Shown: one piece after another, positions 2,514 to 35,237 of the stretch
How the letters are laid out: every line of letters starts with the position of its first letter
Numbering within the stretch: position 1 is the stretch's first letter
Origin: Acidimicrobiales bacterium
GTDB taxonomy: Bacteria > Actinomycetota > Acidimicrobiia > Acidimicrobiales > Aldehydirespiratoraceae
DNA: 64,000 nucleotides
Assembly: GCA_040219515.1 (NCBI GenBank)
Contig: JAVJSI010000009.1
Location: 62,001 to 126,000, forward strand
Direction of reading: 5' to 3'
Translations under genes and position numbers: made by a program
The notes under the pieces: model-generated
Seen by the model: the letters and a program-made list of their open reading frames with translations, nothing else
Database searches by the model: none
Told to the model about the DNA's origin: nothing

Positions 2514-5234
2514 ATGGCCGCAGACCACTTCAGTCGCCAACTCCCCGACATCGATCCCGCAGAGACCAAGGAGTGGATCGACTCCCTCGACGCCGTGCAC
2601 GGGGCCCAGGGGCAGGCCCGGGCCCGCTACATCGTCGCCCGGTTGCTCCAACGAGCCAACGAACTCCAGCTCGGGGTGCCGCCCACCACGAGCACGCCCT
2701 ACATCAACACGATCCCGGCCGAGGAGCAGCCGTTCTTCCCCGGCGACGAACACGTCGAGCGCCGTATTCGGGCCTTCATCCGGTGGAACGCGGCGGCGAT
2801 GGTCATCCGCGCCAACAAGACCGCTGATGGCATCGGTGGTCATCTGTCGACCTACGCGTCGAGTGCCTCGCTCTACGAGGTCGGCTTCAACCACTTCTTC
2901 AAGGGCAAGGAGGACGGGCTGGCCGGCGACCACGTCTACTTCCAGGGTCACGCCGCACCGGGGATCTACGCCCGGGCCTTCCTCGAGGGCCGCCTGAACG
3001 AGTCCCAACTCGACCGGTTCCGCATGGAAGTCGGCGGCGACGGTCTCTCGAGCTATCCCCACCCGCGACTCATGCCCGAGTTCTGGGAGTACCCCACGGT
3101 CTCGATGGGGCTCGGCCCGATCAACTCCATCTACCAGGCCCGATTCAACAAGTACCTGCACCAGCGTCGGCTCGACGACACGTCGAAGAGCAACGTGTGG
3201 AGCTTCCTCGGCGACGGTGAGTGCGACGAGCCCGAGACGCTCGGCGCCATCTCGCTCGCCGGCCGCGCCCAGCTCGGCAACCTCAAGTGGATCATCAACT
3301 GCAACCTCCAGCGGCTCGACGGACCCGTGCGCGGCAACGGCAAGATCATCCAGGAGCTCGAAGGCGTCTTCCGGGGTGCCGGCTGGAACGTCATCAAGGT
3401 CGTCTGGGGTTCCCGGTGGGACGAACTCCTCCACCGCGACGTCGACGGCGTGCTGCTCAACAAGATGGGCGAGACGATCGACGGCGCGTACCAGCGCTAC
3501 GCGGTCGAGGACGGTGCCTACATCCGCGAGCACTTCTTCGGCCCCGACCCGCGTCTGCGCAAGCTCGTCGAACACCTCAGCGACGACGAGATCCGTGCCC
3601 TGCCGCGCGGCGGCCACGACTACCAGAAGGTCTACGCCGCCTTCAAGGCGGCCGCGGAGACAACCGACCAGCCCACCGTCATCCTCGCGAAGACCATCAA
3701 GGGTTGGACACTGGGCGAAGGCTTCGAGGGTCGCAACGCCACGCACCAGATCAAGAAGATGACCAAGAAGCAGCTGCTCGAGTTGCGCGAACGCCTCCAC
3801 ATGGAGGACGAGATCGCCGAGGACGCGCTCGAGGACGGCGTTCCGCCCTACTTCCGGCCCTCGCCCGACTCCCCGGAGCGTGCCTACCTCATGGAACGTC
3901 GGCGGGCCCTCGACGGCCCGCTCCCGTCTCGCATCATCCGCGACCGCCGACCGCTGAAACTCCCCGGCGAGTCGCCCTTCCTCGATCTCATGAAGGGCTC
4001 GGCCGGACGAGCCGTGTCGACCACGATGGCGTTCACCTCGCTGCTGCGCGACCTCCTGCGCGACGAAGCCTTCGGTGATCGCGTCGTCCCGATCGTGCCC
4101 GACGAGGCCCGCACCTTCGGTATGGACTCGCTCTTCCGCGAATTCGGGATCTACGCCCCCACCGGCCAGCTCTACGAACCCGTCGACCACGATCTGTTGC
4201 TCTCCTACACCGAGAGCGAGGACGGCCAGATCCTCGAAGAGGGCATCACCGAGTGCGGTTCCACGGCCTCGTGGATCGCGGCCGGCACTGCGTATGCCAA
4301 CAACGGCATTCCGATGGTGCCCTTCTACACGTTCTATTCGATGTTCGGATTCCAGCGGGTCGGCGACTCGATCTGGGCTGCGGCCGACGCGCGCACGCGC
4401 GGGTTCCTCATGGGTGCCACCGCGGGACGCACGACGCTGCTGGGCGAGGGCCTGCAACACCAGGACGGCCACAGCATGCTGCTCGCCTCCACGGTCCCCT
4501 CGTGTGAGGCCTACGACCCGGCCTTCGCCTACGAACTCTCCACCATCGTGCGCGACGGCCTGCACCGCATGTACCCCGACGGCAGCGCGGTCGATGGCGA
4601 GGACGTCTTCTACTACCTCGCGATCTACAACGAGAACTACGAGCAACCGCCTCGTCCCGACCATGTCGACGATCGCGACATCACGAGCGGTCTCTACAAG
4701 TGGGCCGAGGGCCCCGACGGCCCGTCCAAGCGGGCGACGATCCTCTTCTCCGGTCCGGCCAACCTGGCCGCCCGCGAAGCCCAGGCCATCCTCGCCGAGT
4801 ATCACGACGTCTCGGCCGAGCTGTGGAGCGTCACCTCCTACAAGCGCCTGCGGGCCAACGCGCTCGACGTCGAGCGGCGCAACCGTCTCCAGCCCGAAGG
4901 CACTCCCGACGTGCCCATGATCACCAGCAAGCTCCGCACCAGCGAAGGTCCGATCGTCGCCGTCTCCGACTGGATGGGCCTCGTCCCCGGCCAGGTCAGT
5001 CGGTGGACCCCCCGCCCGATGCGGGTGCTCGGCACCGACGGGTTCGGCCGGTCCGACACCCGCGAAGCGCTGCGGAGCTTCTTCGAGGTCGACGCGTTCT
5101 CGGTGGTCGTCACCGTTCTCGCCGCGTTGGCCGAGGACGGCCAGGTCCCCGCCGCGGAGGTCAGCGCGGCGATCCGCACCTACGGCATCGATCCCTACCG
5201 GCCCGACCCGGCTCACCCCGACACCGGCAGCTGA
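2514..5234 (+). CDS. aceE: Pyruvate dehydrogenase E1 component, homodimeric type
   Basis: A 906-residue thiamine-diphosphate enzyme that decarboxylates pyruvate and acetylates the lipoyl groups of E2. The length and start (IDPAETKEWIDSLDAVH) match the homodimeric AceE of actinobacteria and enterobacteria. The ThDP/Mg motif begins with GDGECDEPET near residue 233 and closes with the Asn of IINCNLQRLDGPVRGN. The transketolase-like middle and C-terminal domains follow (EEGITECGS, FGFQRVGDSIW). No E2 or E3 gene is adjacent, as is usual for unlinked actinobacterial aceE. It is followed 11 bases later by the HhH-GPD gene, so the two are probably cotranscribed. Confidence 0.95.
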   Translation: MAADHFSRQLPDIDPAETKEWIDSLDAVHGAQGQARARYIVARLLQRANELQLGVPPTTSTPYINTIPAEEQPFFPGDEHVERRIRAFIRWNAAAMVIRANKTADGIGGHLSTYASSASLYEVGFNHFFKGKEDGLAGDHVYFQGHAAPGIYARAFLEGRLNESQLDRFRMEVGGDGLSSYPHPRLMPEFWEYPTVSMGLGPINSIYQARFNKYLHQRRLDDTSKSNVWSFLGDGECDEPETLGAISLAGRAQLGNLKWIINCNLQRLDGPVRGNGKIIQELEGVFRGAGWNVIKVVWGSRWDELLHRDVDGVLLNKMGETIDGAYQRYAVEDGAYIREHFFGPDPRLRKLVEHLSDDEIRALPRGGHDYQKVYAAFKAAAETTDQPTVILAKTIKGWTLGEGFEGRNATHQIKKMTKKQLLELRERLHMEDEIAEDALEDGVPPYFRPSPDSPERAYLMERRRALDGPLPSRIIRDRRPLKLPGESPFLDLMKGSAGRAVSTTMAFTSLLRDLLRDEAFGDRVVPIVPDEARTFGMDSLFREFGIYAPTGQLYEPVDHDLLLSYTESEDGQILEEGITECGSTASWIAAGTAYANNGIPMVPFYTFYSMFGFQRVGDSIWAAADARTRGFLMGATAGRTTLLGEGLQHQDGHSMLLASTVPSCEAYDPAFAYELSTIVRDGLHRMYPDGSAVDGEDVFYYLAIYNENYEQPPRPDHVDDRDITSGLYKWAEGPDGPSKRATILFSGPANLAAREAQAILAEYHDVSAELWSVTSYKRLRANALDVERRNRLQPEGTPDVPMITSKLRTSEGPIVAVSDWMGLVPGQVSRWTPRPMRVLGTDGFGRSDTREALRSFFEVDAFSVVVTVLAALAEDGQVPAAEVSAAIRTYGIDPYRPDPAHPDTGS

Positions 5235-23205: not shown

Positions 23206-23724
23206 TCAGTCGATCCGGCGAAGTTCGGACGCGAACAACTCGGCGCGACGGATGTAGGTGTCGACGTTGAGTTGGGAATGCCCCTCGGGCACTGCGTCCT
23301 CGCGGATCTTGACGGGCACGCCGAGCGCCATCGCGCAACGGGGCACCTCGACCTTGCCGGGCACCATCGCGGCCGCACCGACGAGGGCGTGCTCGCCGAT
23401 GATCGCCTCGTGCAGCACGATGCTGCCGGTGCCGATGAGCGCGTGATCGAGCACCCGGCAACCCTCGAGGTGGGCGAGGTGTCCCACCGTCACGAAACGC
23501 CCCACGGTGGTGGGGTGAAACGGGGTGCAGTGCAACACCGCGCCGTCCTGGATCGACGATCCCTCGCCGACCTCGATGGTGTTGTCATCGGCTCGGATCA
23601 CGGCCTGCGGCCACACCGAAGCGCGCGGCCCGATCACGGCACTGCCGATGATGGTGGCCTCCGGGTGGATGTAGGCCGTCTCGTGGATCTCGGGTACCCG
23701 GTCGCCGATCGCGTAGATCGGCAC
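23206..23724 (-). CDS. Gamma-class carbonic anhydrase family protein (YrdA/PaaY-like)
   Basis: A 172-residue left-handed beta-helix protein with hexapeptide repeats (YIHPEATIIGSAVIGPRASVW, HALIGTGSIVLHEAIIG). The metal-binding His pattern is in VLHCTPFHPTTVG and GHLAHLEG. It starts at GTG 23724, which shares one base context with the stop of the flavin reductase gene upstream. Many members bind zinc without proven carbonic anhydrase activity. The long frame running to 24042 lies over the flavin reductase gene and is not used. Confidence 0.85.
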   Translation of the reverse strand: MPIYAIGDRVPEIHETAYIHPEATIIGSAVIGPRASVWPQAVIRADDNTIEVGEGSSIQDGAVLHCTPFHPTTVGRFVTVGHLAHLEGCRVLDHALIGTGSIVLHEAIIGEHALVGAAAMVPGKVEVPRCAMALGVPVKIREDAVPEGHSQLNVDTYIRRAELFASELRRID

Positions 23725-23726
23725 GA

Positions 23727-24215
23727 CTAGAGCCCCTGGTAGCGGCCGTAGCCGCCCTGGAAGAACACGAGCGGCCCGCGGGCCGGCGCATCCTCGGAGG
23801 TCTTCATGGACTGCACCAGACCGACGACGATGTCGTGGTCGCCGCCGTCGTGGACGGCGTGGATCGAGCAGTCGATCGTGGCCAGCGCGCCCGGGATCAA
23901 CGGCGCCCCCGTGTGGTCGGTGGTCCATTCGATGCCCGCGAACTTGTCGTCCACCTTGCTGGCGAAGACCCCGCAGACGTCGGCTTGGTCGTGACCGAGC
24001 ACGTTGACGCAGAACGCCCCGGTCTCCTGGATGCGCAGCCATGTGGCCGAGGTCGCGCTCGGACAGAACATGACCAGCGGCGGATCGAGCGAGACGCTGG
24101 CGAACGATCCGATCGCCATCCCCGTGGGGCCGGCGTCGTCGACCCCCGTCACGACCGTCACACCGGTCGGGAAGTGTCCGAGCACCCGTCGGTATTCGCT
24201 GGAATCGATCGTCAT
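23727..24215 (-). CDS. Flavin reductase domain protein
   Basis: A 162-residue flavin reductase-like protein (HpaC/FRP type) that would supply reduced FMN or FAD to a monooxygenase. Motifs are RRVLGHFPTGVTVVTGVD, GMAIGSFASVSLDPPLVMFCPS and CVNVLGHDQADVC. GAGGAGC is a strong ribosome binding site just upstream of the ATG at 24215. No obvious oxygenase partner is adjacent. Confidence 0.88.
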   Translation of the reverse strand: MTIDSSEYRRVLGHFPTGVTVVTGVDDAGPTGMAIGSFASVSLDPPLVMFCPSATSATWLRIQETGAFCVNVLGHDQADVCGVFASKVDDKFAGIEWTTDHTGAPLIPGALATIDCSIHAVHDGGDHDIVVGLVQSMKTSEDAPARGPLVFFQGGYGRYQGL

Positions 24216-24286: not shown

Positions 24287-25150
24287 TCAGGAGCGGGCGG
24301 TGACCGAGAGTTTCAGACCCTCGGTGGCGCAGACGACGGCGTCGATTCCACGGCACGCGGCGCGAGCGGTGATGCGCTCGGTCATCTCGTCGAGGTCTTC
24401 GTCGGTGTGCGACGGGTCGTGATGGAAGAGCACGAGCGTGGACACGCCCGCCTGCGCCGCCACCTCGACCGCATACTCCGGCGTGCAGTGTCCCCAGTTC
24501 GACTTCAGCGCGAACTCGTCGGGCCACAGCTGGGCGTCGTGGATCAACACGTCGACCCCGGCGCAGAGTTCGAGTACGGCCGGATCGACGTAGCCGGGTC
24601 GATCCACCGGCTCCTGGTGGTCGGGGATGTAGGCGACCGAGACACCATTGCGGGTGACTCGATACCCGTTCGTTTTCCCACAGTGCGGAACCGGCCGGAC
24701 CATCACCGCCGACCCGTCGATGACCAGATCGTCGTGGTGGGCGTCGTGGAACTCGACGGTCGCCGGCAGGTCGGCGACCTCGATCGGGAAGTAGGGCGGA
24801 CTCATGAACTTCGCGAATGTCTCGGCCATGGTCTGGCCGCCGTCGGCGGGGCCGTAGACGTGCACTTCCGTCTCGGCCGACTGGAGCGGCATGAAGAAGG
24901 GAAGGCCCTGCACATGGTCCCAGTGCAGATGAGTGACGAGGGCGTGCACCGTGACCGGATCTCCCGGGGTCATCGAGCATCCCCAGGGCCGCAGGCCGGT
25001 ACCGAGGTCGAGCACGATCGGGTCGTGGCCGGGCGCTTCGATCGAGACGCAGCTCGTGTTGCCGCCGTAGCGTTGCACCGAGGGACAGCTGCACGGCGTG
25101 GAGCCGCGGACGCCGTGAAAGGAAACGTCAATCGAATATTCATCCCCCAT
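24287..25150 (-). CDS. Metallo-beta-lactamase-fold hydrolase
   Basis: A 287-residue MBL-fold protein related to RNase Z and cAMP phosphodiesterase-type enzymes. The metal motif is THLHWDHVQGLPFF, with further ligands in IPDHQEP, IHDAQLW and FHHDPSHTD. The N-terminal FHGVRGSTPCSCPSVQRYGGNTSC is typical of the subgroup found beside sensor proteins. ATGs at 25156 and 25150 are both possible; the second lies 9 bases after a TAGTTT box. It is divergent from the thioredoxin-fold gene at 25238. Confidence 0.85.
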   Translation of the reverse strand: MGDEYSIDVSFHGVRGSTPCSCPSVQRYGGNTSCVSIEAPGHDPIVLDLGTGLRPWGCSMTPGDPVTVHALVTHLHWDHVQGLPFFMPLQSAETEVHVYGPADGGQTMAETFAKFMSPPYFPIEVADLPATVEFHDAHHDDLVIDGSAVMVRPVPHCGKTNGYRVTRNGVSVAYIPDHQEPVDRPGYVDPAVLELCAGVDVLIHDAQLWPDEFALKSNWGHCTPEYAVEVAAQAGVSTLVLFHHDPSHTDEDLDEMTERITARAACRGIDAVVCATEGLKLSVTARS

Positions 25151-25225
25151 GAACATTCGAAACTAGTCAACGTAACCCCGTCCCGTCGAGGGTCGTGTGA
25201 CGGAATTCTCACCCGCAGTCGTCGC

Positions 25226-25237: not shown

Positions 25238-26698
25238 ATGCCTCCGCCAACATCACCGAACTCGGCTCCCCCACGGTTGCCCGACGGGCTGGTCGCCATC
25301 GTCAAGCGGGACTGCCCGACGTGCGTGCTCGTGGCACCGGTGCTCGAGGACCTCGCGGCCCGAGCCGCGCTCACGGTCATCAGCCAGGACGACGCCGGGT
25401 TCCCGACGGTGGCCGACTGGGTGATCCACGACGAGGATCTGGCGCTCTCGTGGCACCACGACATCGACGCGGTGCCCACGCTGGTCCGCGTCGACGACGG
25501 GCAGGTGACCGAACGCATCGAGGGCTGGTCACGAGATCAGTGGGAGACCTTCACCGGCACCAGCGGTCTCGGCGAGGGGCTGCCCGACTGGCGTCCCGGG
25601 TGCGGGTCGCTGAGCGTCGACCCCAACCTCGCCGACGAGTTGGCCGTGCGGTTCTCCGGCTCCACGCTGCGGAGCCGCCGGGTCGAGATCGCGGTACTGG
25701 AGGACGAGTGGGAGGCGATGTGGGATCGCGGCTGGAGTGACGGGCTTCCCGTCGTACCGCCCACCGAGGCCCGCGTTCTCCGCATGCTCGAGGGCACCAC
25801 CCGGGCCCCCGACGACATCGTCGCCATCGCGCCGCCCGACCTCGTGGAATGCACCGTCGAGAAGGTCGCGATCAACGCGGTGATGGCCGGCTGCAAGCCG
25901 GAATATCTTCCCGTCGTGCTCACCGCGGTCGAAGCCGCGTGCACCGACGAGTTCAACATGCACGGCCTGCTCGCCACCACGATGCCGGTCGGTCCGGTAC
26001 TCGTCGTCAACGGGCCGATCTGCGAACAGATCGGCATGAACAGCGGGCTCAACCTGCTCGGCCAGGGCAACCGGGCGAACAGCACCATCGGCCGTGCACT
26101 CCAGCTCGTCATCCGCAATGTGGGAGGCGGCAAGCCCGGCGGCGTCGACCGTGCGACGCAGGGCAACCCCGGCAAGATCGGCTTGTGCTTCGCCGAGGAC
26201 GAGGCGGGTTCGCCATGGGAGTCGCTGGCCCGGTCCCGGGGATTCGACGCCTCGGCCTCCACCGTCACGTTGTTCCCGGGTGAGGGACCCCGCCTCCTTT
26301 TCGACCAGAAGTCCCGCTCGGCGGACTCGCTGACCCGCCACTTTGCCCAGATGCTGCGCACCTACGCGAGCCCCCGGATGGTGATGCAGTTCGAGACCAT
26401 CATCGTGATGTCCCCCGAACACATGAACCGCTACCGCGACGCCGGTTGGGACCGAGCCCGCTTCCTCGAGGAACTCGAGTCCCACCTGATGGTCGACGGT
26501 GCCGACATCATCGCCGGTGCCGACGGCATCGAGGAGGGCATGCCCGAGTTCGTGAAGGACATGCAGCTGTCGAAGTTCCCGCCCGGCGGCATCCACGTGG
26601 TCCACGGCGGCAGCCACGCGGGGCTCTTCTCCGCAGCCATCGGCGGGTGGGTGACCGGCGAGATGGGTAGTCTCACCGTCACGAGGGAGATCACGTGA
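25238..26698 (+). CDS. Thioredoxin-fold domain fused to an uncharacterised UGSC-associated domain
   Basis: Residues 15-115 look like a thioredoxin fold: LVAIVKRDCPTCVLVAPVLEDL has a CPTC redox pair and the cis-Pro loop is IDAVPTLVRVDDG. Residues 145-486 are a large domain of unknown function with WSDGLPVVPPTEARVLRML, NMHGLLATTMPVGPVLVVNG, MNSGLNLLGQGNRANSTIG and VHGGSHAGLFSAAIGGW. It is followed after 16 bases by the UGSC selenoprotein gene on the same strand. The pair therefore probably forms one redox system, with the CPTC domain a possible reductant for the Sec protein. That role is inference. Confidence 0.75.
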   Translation: MPPPTSPNSAPPRLPDGLVAIVKRDCPTCVLVAPVLEDLAARAALTVISQDDAGFPTVADWVIHDEDLALSWHHDIDAVPTLVRVDDGQVTERIEGWSRDQWETFTGTSGLGEGLPDWRPGCGSLSVDPNLADELAVRFSGSTLRSRRVEIAVLEDEWEAMWDRGWSDGLPVVPPTEARVLRMLEGTTRAPDDIVAIAPPDLVECTVEKVAINAVMAGCKPEYLPVVLTAVEAACTDEFNMHGLLATTMPVGPVLVVNGPICEQIGMNSGLNLLGQGNRANSTIGRALQLVIRNVGGGKPGGVDRATQGNPGKIGLCFAEDEAGSPWESLARSRGFDASASTVTLFPGEGPRLLFDQKSRSADSLTRHFAQMLRTYASPRMVMQFETIIVMSPEHMNRYRDAGWDRARFLEELESHLMVDGADIIAGADGIEEGMPEFVKDMQLSKFPPGGIHVVHGGSHAGLFSAAIGGWVTGEMGSLTVTREIT

Positions 26699-26710
26699 CG
26701 AGGGAGATCA
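26681..26710 (+). repeat. Direct repeat doubling the ribosome binding site
   Basis: ACGAGGGAGATCA occurs at 26681-26693 and again at 26698-26710. The second copy supplies the GGGAG ribosome binding site of the selenoprotein gene; the first is in the last codons of the preceding gene. Confidence 0.7.
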
Positions 26711-26714
26711 AGCC

Positions 26715-27251
26715 ATGACGACAGTGCTCTCGAAGACCACGGTGCTCGACCCCACCGGGGAACTTCGACCCGAGGTCCGAGAACGGGTCGCCCGGCCCGA
26801 ATCACTCAACGGTCTGACCGTCGGTCTGCTCGACATCTCCAAGCCTCGCGGCAACGTGTTCCTCGACCGGGTGGAAGAGAAGCTCACTGCGCTGGGCGCC
26901 TCGGTGAAGCGCTTCGCGAAACCGACGTTCACCAAGCCGGCGCCCGTCGATCTCCGTCACGAGATCGCCACGAGCTGTGACGCGGTGATCGAAGCACTCG
27001 CCGATTGAGGCAGCTGCACGACGTGCAGTGTGCACGACATCAACGATCTCGAACGACGAGGCATTCCGGGGGTCTTCGTGGCCACCGTCGAGTTCGCCGA
27101 CGCCGCCGACGGCCAGTCGAAGGCCCTCGGACTCGACGTGGCCCACGTACTCACACCGCACCCGATCCAGGATCGGACCGACGAGGAGATGGTCGCGATC
27201 GCCGATCAGGCGATCGATGCACTCCTGGGTGCGCTCACCGGCCCCGACTGA
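26715..27251 (+). CDS. UGSC-family selenoprotein, in-frame TGA read as selenocysteine
   Basis: The frame is 179 codons with one internal TGA at 27006-27008. Read as Sec it gives ...ALAD-U98-G-S-C101-T-T-C104-SVHDINDLERRG, the motif that names the UGSC (seleno)protein family known from genome and ocean metagenome surveys. The N-terminal part contains LNGLTVGLLDISKPRGNVFLD and the C-terminal part GIPGVFVATVEFADAADGQ. It ends FADQ-independent at the stop TGA 27249-27251. Without readthrough it would appear as a 97-residue protein and a separate 73-residue one. A hairpin lies directly after the TGA. U98/C101 and C101/C104 could form redox pairs. It overlaps the convergent mutY end by 46 bases. 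Confidence 0.87.
27010..27033 (+). promoter_or_regulatory. SECIS-like hairpin after the UGSC TGA
   Basis: CTGCAC (27014-27019) pairs with GTGCAG (27023-27028) around a GAC loop. The stem extends through a G-T pair and, past a bulged G at 27030, through GCA/TGC to 27010-27033. It begins two bases after the TGA, the place of bacterial SECIS elements bound by SelB. The loop begins with G as in known elements, but it is small. Confidence 0.5.

Positions 27252-33598: not shown

Positions 33599-35237
<1,639 letters not shown>

Follow-up and report, generated by a model that had tools for sequence, protein, structure and literature searches.

UGSC was found to be a major selenoprotein family in the 2008 ocean survey, which also describes UGSC/Unknown_1 fusion proteins from ocean metagenomes, in which UGSC is joined to a conserved domain of unknown function (PMC2398784). 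Selenoproteins with the UGSC motif are also described in Geodermatophilaceae, together with a tRNA-Sec carrying the anticodon CUA (PMC5330540). In the table of 119 families in a 2026 review, where many of the models named are held by NCBIfam, UGSC is listed as predicted, not verified (PMC13188914).

Then, does UGSC have a regular partner? Here, we analyse a UGSC gene and the gene preceding it in one stretch of 64,000 nucleotides from an Acidimicrobiales bacterium (GCA_040219515.1, contig JAVJSI010000009.1, positions 62,001 to 126,000), which is called the window below. The UGSC gene itself is of an already known kind. The new part is the upstream partner, which gained selenocysteine (Sec) in one related group. 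The UGSC passages of the literature searched contain no mention of this partner, and the 119-family table offers no matchable family for it (PMC13188914). No report of the partner as a selenoprotein was found in the main texts of the freely accessible journal literature, and neither PGUGS nor GUGSL occurs among the best-ranked literature matches.

The UGSC gene and its in-frame TGA

The UGSC gene is located at 26715..27251 of the window, on the forward strand like its stem-loop and the partner gene described below, and encodes 178 aa if the in-frame TGA at 27006..27008 is translated as Sec (residue 98). The motif thus read is U98-G-S-C-T-T-C, i.e. UxxCxxC, and the second TGA is the true stop. 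A first-pass annotation, made from the letters alone, had proposed a UGSC selenoprotein gene split by a TGA, and the family profile searches agree with it. The joined protein scores 153.3 bits against NF041046 (cut-off 125) and 146.9 bits against PF24696, while its two pieces match NF041046 separately and end to end, with 56.7 bits (profile 2-68) and 75.4 bits (profile 70-147); the corresponding scores for PF24696 are 61.7 and 64.7 bits. The Sec lies at the UGSC position of NF041046 and its flanks are conserved. The gene, which occurs only once in the source genome, is an ordinary member of the family NF041046 / PF24696, full-length and above the cut-offs, with no essential difference from it. 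The frame does stay open after the TGA as had been claimed, although for 80 codons after the Sec codon and not for 81.

It should be noted that stops with at least 90 open codons before them and at least 80 after are common in the window, where 143 were counted on both strands (115 TGA and 28 TAG). Consequently, homology and not the open frame carries the Sec claim. The synonymous divergence exceeds the non-synonymous one on both sides of the TGA in 7/7 near relatives compared, the values for the nearest relative being 0.57 vs. 0.034 downstream of the TGA and 0.75 vs. 0.037 upstream. Strong conservation in relatives is also seen in the codons that follow the TGA, a point on which the first-pass annotation had made its reading depend. 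An ordinary stop, whether it ends a working protein of 97 aa or marks a pseudogene that has suffered a nonsense mutation, could appeal to the chance open frames just counted; however, with one family matched by both halves, the TGA kept in 80/80 named loci (the best 80 of 160), synonymous change well above non-synonymous change after the TGA and selenium machinery in the genome, this explanation can practically be discarded.

The machinery is complete. In the source assembly (4.0 Mb, 19 contigs, 99.98% complete), selA (394 bits, cut-off 268) adjoins selB (276 bits, cut-off 242), and the gene of tRNA-Sec (64 bits, gathering score 47), with the anticodon tca according to ARAGORN, shares its contig with selB at a distance of about 24 kb. 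As selD is also present (362 bits, cut-off 125), the source genome has the Sec-decoding trait, and all four of the genes named for checking in the first-pass annotation were recovered. The selD gene (G000:C16:95480-96403) is itself a selenoprotein gene, whose one in-frame TGA falls within GAGUGCK (GAG-U-GCK).

A SECIS-like stem-loop was identified at 27020..27038, with the arms 27020-27027 and 27031-27038 and the loop GTG at 27028-27030. The stem begins 11 nt after the TGA and contains up to 8 pairs around a 3-nt loop; the window copy forms 7/8 pairs, with an A.A mismatch at the second pair. Among 118 distinct TGA windows, drawn from 152 loci caught by motif, 67 form 8/8 pairs, 48 form 7/8 and 3 form 6/8, and one of the pairs is G-C in 106, A-U in 8 and G-U in 4. 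The third-position entropy is 0-0.47 bits for codons +4 to +10 after the TGA and 0.99-1.87 bits for codons +12 to +18. The folding energy of the 61-nt stretch around the window TGA is no better than that of shuffles (z -0.12). A conserved stem-loop right after the UGA, which is the mark of a bacterial SECIS, is supported here by conservation and not by fold energy. Note that all these windows are TGA forms, for the motif caught no Cys form, so that Sec and Cys stems could be contrasted for the partner only.

We regard it as almost certain that the UGSC TGA is decoded as Sec by the genome's own machinery, giving a full-length selenoprotein. SelA, SelB, SelD and tRNA-Sec would act on the TGA at the stem-loop just downstream, and U98-C101-C104 (UxxCxxC) would be the likely redox centre of the product.

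A thioredoxin fold was guessed as likely for UGSC in the ocean survey (PMC2398784). The UGSC model (pLDDT 89.5) displays an alternating alpha/beta fold, whose best match is 8s7v_H of the methyl-coenzyme M reductase activation complex (Z 11.3, rmsd 3.6, 134 aligned), closely followed by a designed protein, the Lac repressor and other folds; no thioredoxin occurs in the best 50 rows. The comparison with solved structures by sequence returned one row only (E 0.81). Upstream of the gene, a possible ribosome-binding site, GAGGGAG, could be read by eye at 26700..26706, 8 nt before the start. A 13-base direct repeat (ACGAGGGAGATCA) at 26681-26710 overlaps this presumed site and the end of the partner gene.

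The UGSC family is common in the order. It was matched in 207/397 genomes sampled from the order, in 166 of them above the cut-off. The TGA form occurs in 193 of the 207 and Cys forms only in 12, and two matches were too poor to judge; one TGA is present in every UGSC row among the matches listed (147 genomes), and the other 60 genomes were covered by two follow-up searches. The TGA, Cys and selB tallies were compiled by hand from search lists for the same 397 genomes, counting selB as present at E 1e-68 or better and setting aside values of 1e-63 to 1e-66 as borderline. On this basis, selB is missing in 16/193 TGA genomes vs. 8/12 Cys-only genomes, with 4 and 1 borderline cases, respectively. 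Without the latter, selB is present/missing in 173/16 TGA genomes vs. 3/8 Cys-only genomes (Fisher p 1.7e-6, which is only a guide because the genomes share ancestry). Of the 16 TGA genomes without selB, 11 are less than 90% complete. Against a strict link, a TGA form goes without a strong selB match in 5 genomes whose completeness is 90% or more, and three Cys-only genomes do carry selB. In addition, 6 to 10 UGSC matches per genome were observed in G012, G396, G319 and several genomes of genus g39, nearly all of them with an in-frame TGA, which is a large set for one selenoprotein family.

The partner gene and its pairing with UGSC

The partner gene (25238..26698) encodes 486 aa, and its stop is separated from the UGSC start by a spacer of 16 nt. 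The protein is composed of a thioredoxin-like domain (25238..25567) with C26 and C29 in CPTC, a PGCGS motif (25595..25609) in which C122 is encoded at 25601-25603, and a C-terminal domain without a curated family model. Across 59 aligned sequences, C26, C29, C122 and C235 never vary if Sec is counted as Cys. In the model (pLDDT 87), the thioredoxin domain lies near residues 9-108, and residues 11-108 match thioredoxin 1syr_H (Z 8.9, rmsd 2.3, 84 aligned). The partner shares CPTC and the thioredoxin fold with thioredoxin (TIGR01068) and with TraF/TrbB thioredoxin-like proteins; however, its sequence scores are weak (16.3 bits against TIGR01068, E 0.0079, under the family cut-off of 96.8), and its domain is fused to PGxGS and to a domain for which no family model exists.

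For this C-terminal domain (about 340 aa, residues 150-486), no Pfam or NCBIfam model was matched by the 59 members scanned at E 0.1, and the family matches of the window partner at that threshold fall only within residues 17-98. The 59 partners together match 8 NCBIfam families, which are thioredoxin-type or are weak ones seen in 1 to 4 members. The VPGUxxT thioredoxin-like selenoprotein (NF041383), which, going by its name in the review table, has a PGU-type motif in a thioredoxin-like protein (PMC13188914), is not among these 8 (E 0.1). Foldseek found no trustworthy fold match for the C-terminal part, which is also barely covered by the best 50 VIA-align rows; these are thioredoxin-type and span residues 9-123 at most. 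The comparison with solved structures by sequence gave thioredoxins plus two chance rows at E 0.8. Class I fumarase, which appeared in the top Foldseek rows, was rejected as the fold of the partner, the match being too poor (E 2.4e-4, TM 0.21, rmsd 16.6). When a frame of the locus was compared with the fumarase encoded in the source genome, E was 0.011 overall and 0.025 for the best stretch, in a tiny comparison set. A class I fumarase domain is encoded some 6.5 kb downstream, at 33740-34573 of the window and in the same orientation.

The partner precedes UGSC in 31/31 first loci, the window's own included. Among the best 80 of 160 relatives from named genomes, a TGA-type UGSC directly follows the partner in 80/80 loci; the automatic count was 79, since L156 is split into two pieces and the stop lies in the second. 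Acidimicrobiia, Acidimicrobiales and Acidimicrobiaceae predominate among the labels of these relatives, in keeping with the Acidimicrobiia-like setting supposed at first, and a few are labelled Deltaproteobacteria. In genomes selected because their selB or UGSC was weak, 22/26 further UGSC loci have a partner relative alongside; at L059, L060 and L063 none was found within about 1.5 kb to either side, and the contig of L062 is short. The partner is found in 198/397 genomes of the order sample (E 1e-60) and in 28/396 genomes of the phylum sample (E 1e-40). One phylum match (G694) has a TGA and a TAG near its start, which are taken as sequence before the real start. The UGSC/Unknown_1 fusion likewise links UGSC to a conserved domain, a likeness that holds at the level of description; the section of the survey that describes it mentions no Sec for Unknown_1, in contrast to the clade of PGUGS partners described below (PMC2398784).

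In 26/31 more distant loci, the match to the partner starts downstream of the PGxGS part, from profile position 120 onwards. As C122 corresponds to position 113, Sec could not be judged in these 26 paralogous partners. A relay from CPTC to PGxGS is therefore not general to UGSC, and the other pairs must obtain electrons elsewhere.

Beside the pair, a metallo-hydrolase gene is kept in 40/80 loci, a carbonic-anhydrase-like gene in 51/80 and MutY in 30/80, the flanks being unequal in length. In the window, the divergent genes at 24287-25156 and 23206-23760 are presumably the metallo-hydrolase-like and carbonic-anhydrase-like ones. A first clustering of the neighbours was discarded, for it had caught shadow frames of GC-rich DNA. 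Around paralogous pairs, ten neighbours were picked by eye from ten stretches and scanned against Pfam, without a control set. They include CoA-transferase III (L228, L229), acyl-CoA dehydrogenase (L228, L232), enoyl-CoA hydratase (L232), short-chain dehydrogenase (L225, L232), amidohydrolase (L225) and a part of a TRAP transporter (L229), as well as a class II aldolase at L226, where no UGSC was found. These neighbours hint at organic-acid catabolism and serve as a lead only. Three matches to the partner-type C-domain were also found on the single contig of L226 (G568:C272). They fall in two long frames (663 and 755 aa), next to a gene that we assume to be a monooxygenase.

Predicted selenocysteine in the partner

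The window copy of the partner has TGC (Cys) at C122. In 16/80 loci (the best 80 of 160; L109, L114, L116, L118, L121-L129, L135, L152 and L154), the codon at this position is TGA, never TAA or TAG, giving PGUGS. Stops occur in 18/80 partner loci altogether; of the other two, L079 has its TAG ahead of the start region and L101 is frameshifted. The TGA comes together with a stem, GTCGAYCC...GGRTCGAC, located 15 nt after the first base of the TGA. The motif scan covered 141 loci, with 26 TGA forms, 112 Cys forms and 3 missed. Among 17 distinct TGA windows, 13 form 8/8 pairs and 4 form 7/8 (one owing to an N), vs. 0 with 8/8 and 8 with 7/8 among 88 distinct Cys windows. U-A and C-G swap within the stem.

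A tree was built from 60 of these 80 partners after masking the Cys/Sec column. It places the Sec partners, 16 in number, in one clade inside the Cys forms (support 96/89). A single change of the Cys/Sec label is sufficient, and this is also the case in 93% of 200 bootstrap trees. Among the order-sample matches listed, the TGA partners all belong to family f54, where they occur in 16/16 genomes that have a partner, and all 16 f54 genomes with the partner carry selB at E 2.1e-77 or better. Note that several f54 sequences are identical to those from named relatives.

Could these TGAs reflect errors of sequencing or the decay of the genes? According to their titles, the sources are metagenome assemblies, and the two other loci above do have broken frames. 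However, 16 separately named contigs have a TGA every time, exactly at the Cys column, the stem-loop is confined to the TGA forms, non-synonymous change is low after the TGA, as it is before it, in 7/7 pairs tested, the clade is single and supported, and selB accompanies the partner throughout f54, so that such an explanation is very improbable. From the TGA at the Cys column, the SECIS-like stem and selB, the partner is predicted to be a selenoprotein (PGUGS) in one clade. It looks like a single Cys-to-Sec exchange, with the stem-loop going together with the TGA. The appearance of Sec at precisely the position of C122, next to a selenoprotein already in place, agrees with a redox role for this residue.

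Possible function of the pair

That UGSC is made by Sec decoding and that the two genes are functionally paired is, taken together, well supported and highly probable. As for what the pair does, we tentatively suggest that UGSC and the partner may be the two halves of one redox enzyme, with, in the simplest reading, a relay from CPTC through PG(C/U)GS to U98, though we hold this with less than even confidence. The thioredoxin domain of the partner (C26/C29) would hand electrons to the Cys of PGxGS (Sec in one clade), which would in turn reduce the UGSC centre when this has become oxidised in the course of reducing a small organic substrate, and this substrate would be handled jointly with the C-terminal domain of the partner. 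What the computations show is the machinery, the decoding signature, the pairing of the genes, the invariant positions of Cys/Sec and the exchange of Cys for Sec together with its own stem-loop, while the physical complex, the order of electron transfer and the kind of substrate are all inferred.

A general antioxidant thiol/peroxide system, rather than a catabolic enzyme, is the foremost alternative, which we consider unlikely, if by no means negligible. The thioredoxin domain of the partner is consistent with it, as is the view in the review that redox functions are likely for most of the uncharacterised selenoproteins (PMC13188914), and by eye no obvious catabolic cluster is located beside the window copy. 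However, neither UGSC nor the partner gave a peroxiredoxin match in these searches, some paralogous pairs adjoin CoA-transferase III, acyl-CoA dehydrogenase, enoyl-CoA hydratase or short-chain dehydrogenase genes, and the 6 to 10 UGSC matches in some genomes also argue against it.

GrdB, the selenoprotein B of glycine reductase, has the pyruvoyl subunit GrdE as its partner. UGSC could accordingly be a shortened selenoprotein B of glycine or proline reductase and the upstream protein a GrdE/PrdA-like pyruvoyl subunit, the two forming a reductase that cleaves C-N or C-X bonds. In GrdB (TIGR01917) and the related selenoprotein B families, the Sec motif region and the following stretch do align with UGSC, whose residues 83-153 weakly match the C-terminal Sec region of TIGR01917 (E 5.3e-6); a profile comparison pairs the Sec sites of the two, and GrdB is likewise a Sec subunit working with a larger one. 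The match is nevertheless confined to the C-terminal part and is far under the cut-off (25.6 bits vs. 602.2), and the hhalign probability is 13%. The partner is not GrdE-like (probability 0.1% in the profile comparison). We therefore judge this reading to be somewhat less likely still than an antioxidant role. Glycine-reductase-like GrdE/GrdB genes do occur in other genomes of the phylum (L188, L189-L192, L194, L195), and the GrdB-like gene of L188 has an in-frame TGA at 3762-3764.

Returning to the two-protein redox enzyme, in its broadest form it would be a new type of selenoenzyme whose two subunits are encoded by this gene pair, namely the Sec subunit UGSC and a subunit uniting a thioredoxin domain, the PGxGS electron shuttle and a domain, catalytic or for the substrate, from a family that still awaits description. 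The shuttle would itself be Sec in one family of Acidimicrobiales, so that two selenoproteins of one operon would exchange electrons, and pairs without the thioredoxin part would have multiplied, some of them in organic-acid/CoA-ester clusters. This is possible, though the odds are somewhat against it. If true, it would make UGSC and its partner a widespread, uncharacterised class of reductases. With UGSC matched in 207/397 and the partner in 198/397 genomes, we infer that annotations of the group may often split or miss both genes. With a thioredoxin-domain protein that carries a putative Cys/Sec shuttle as its regular companion, UGSC now has definite proteins and residues on which its function can be tested, and the exchange of Cys for Sec in that partner is useful for asking how new selenoproteins arise.
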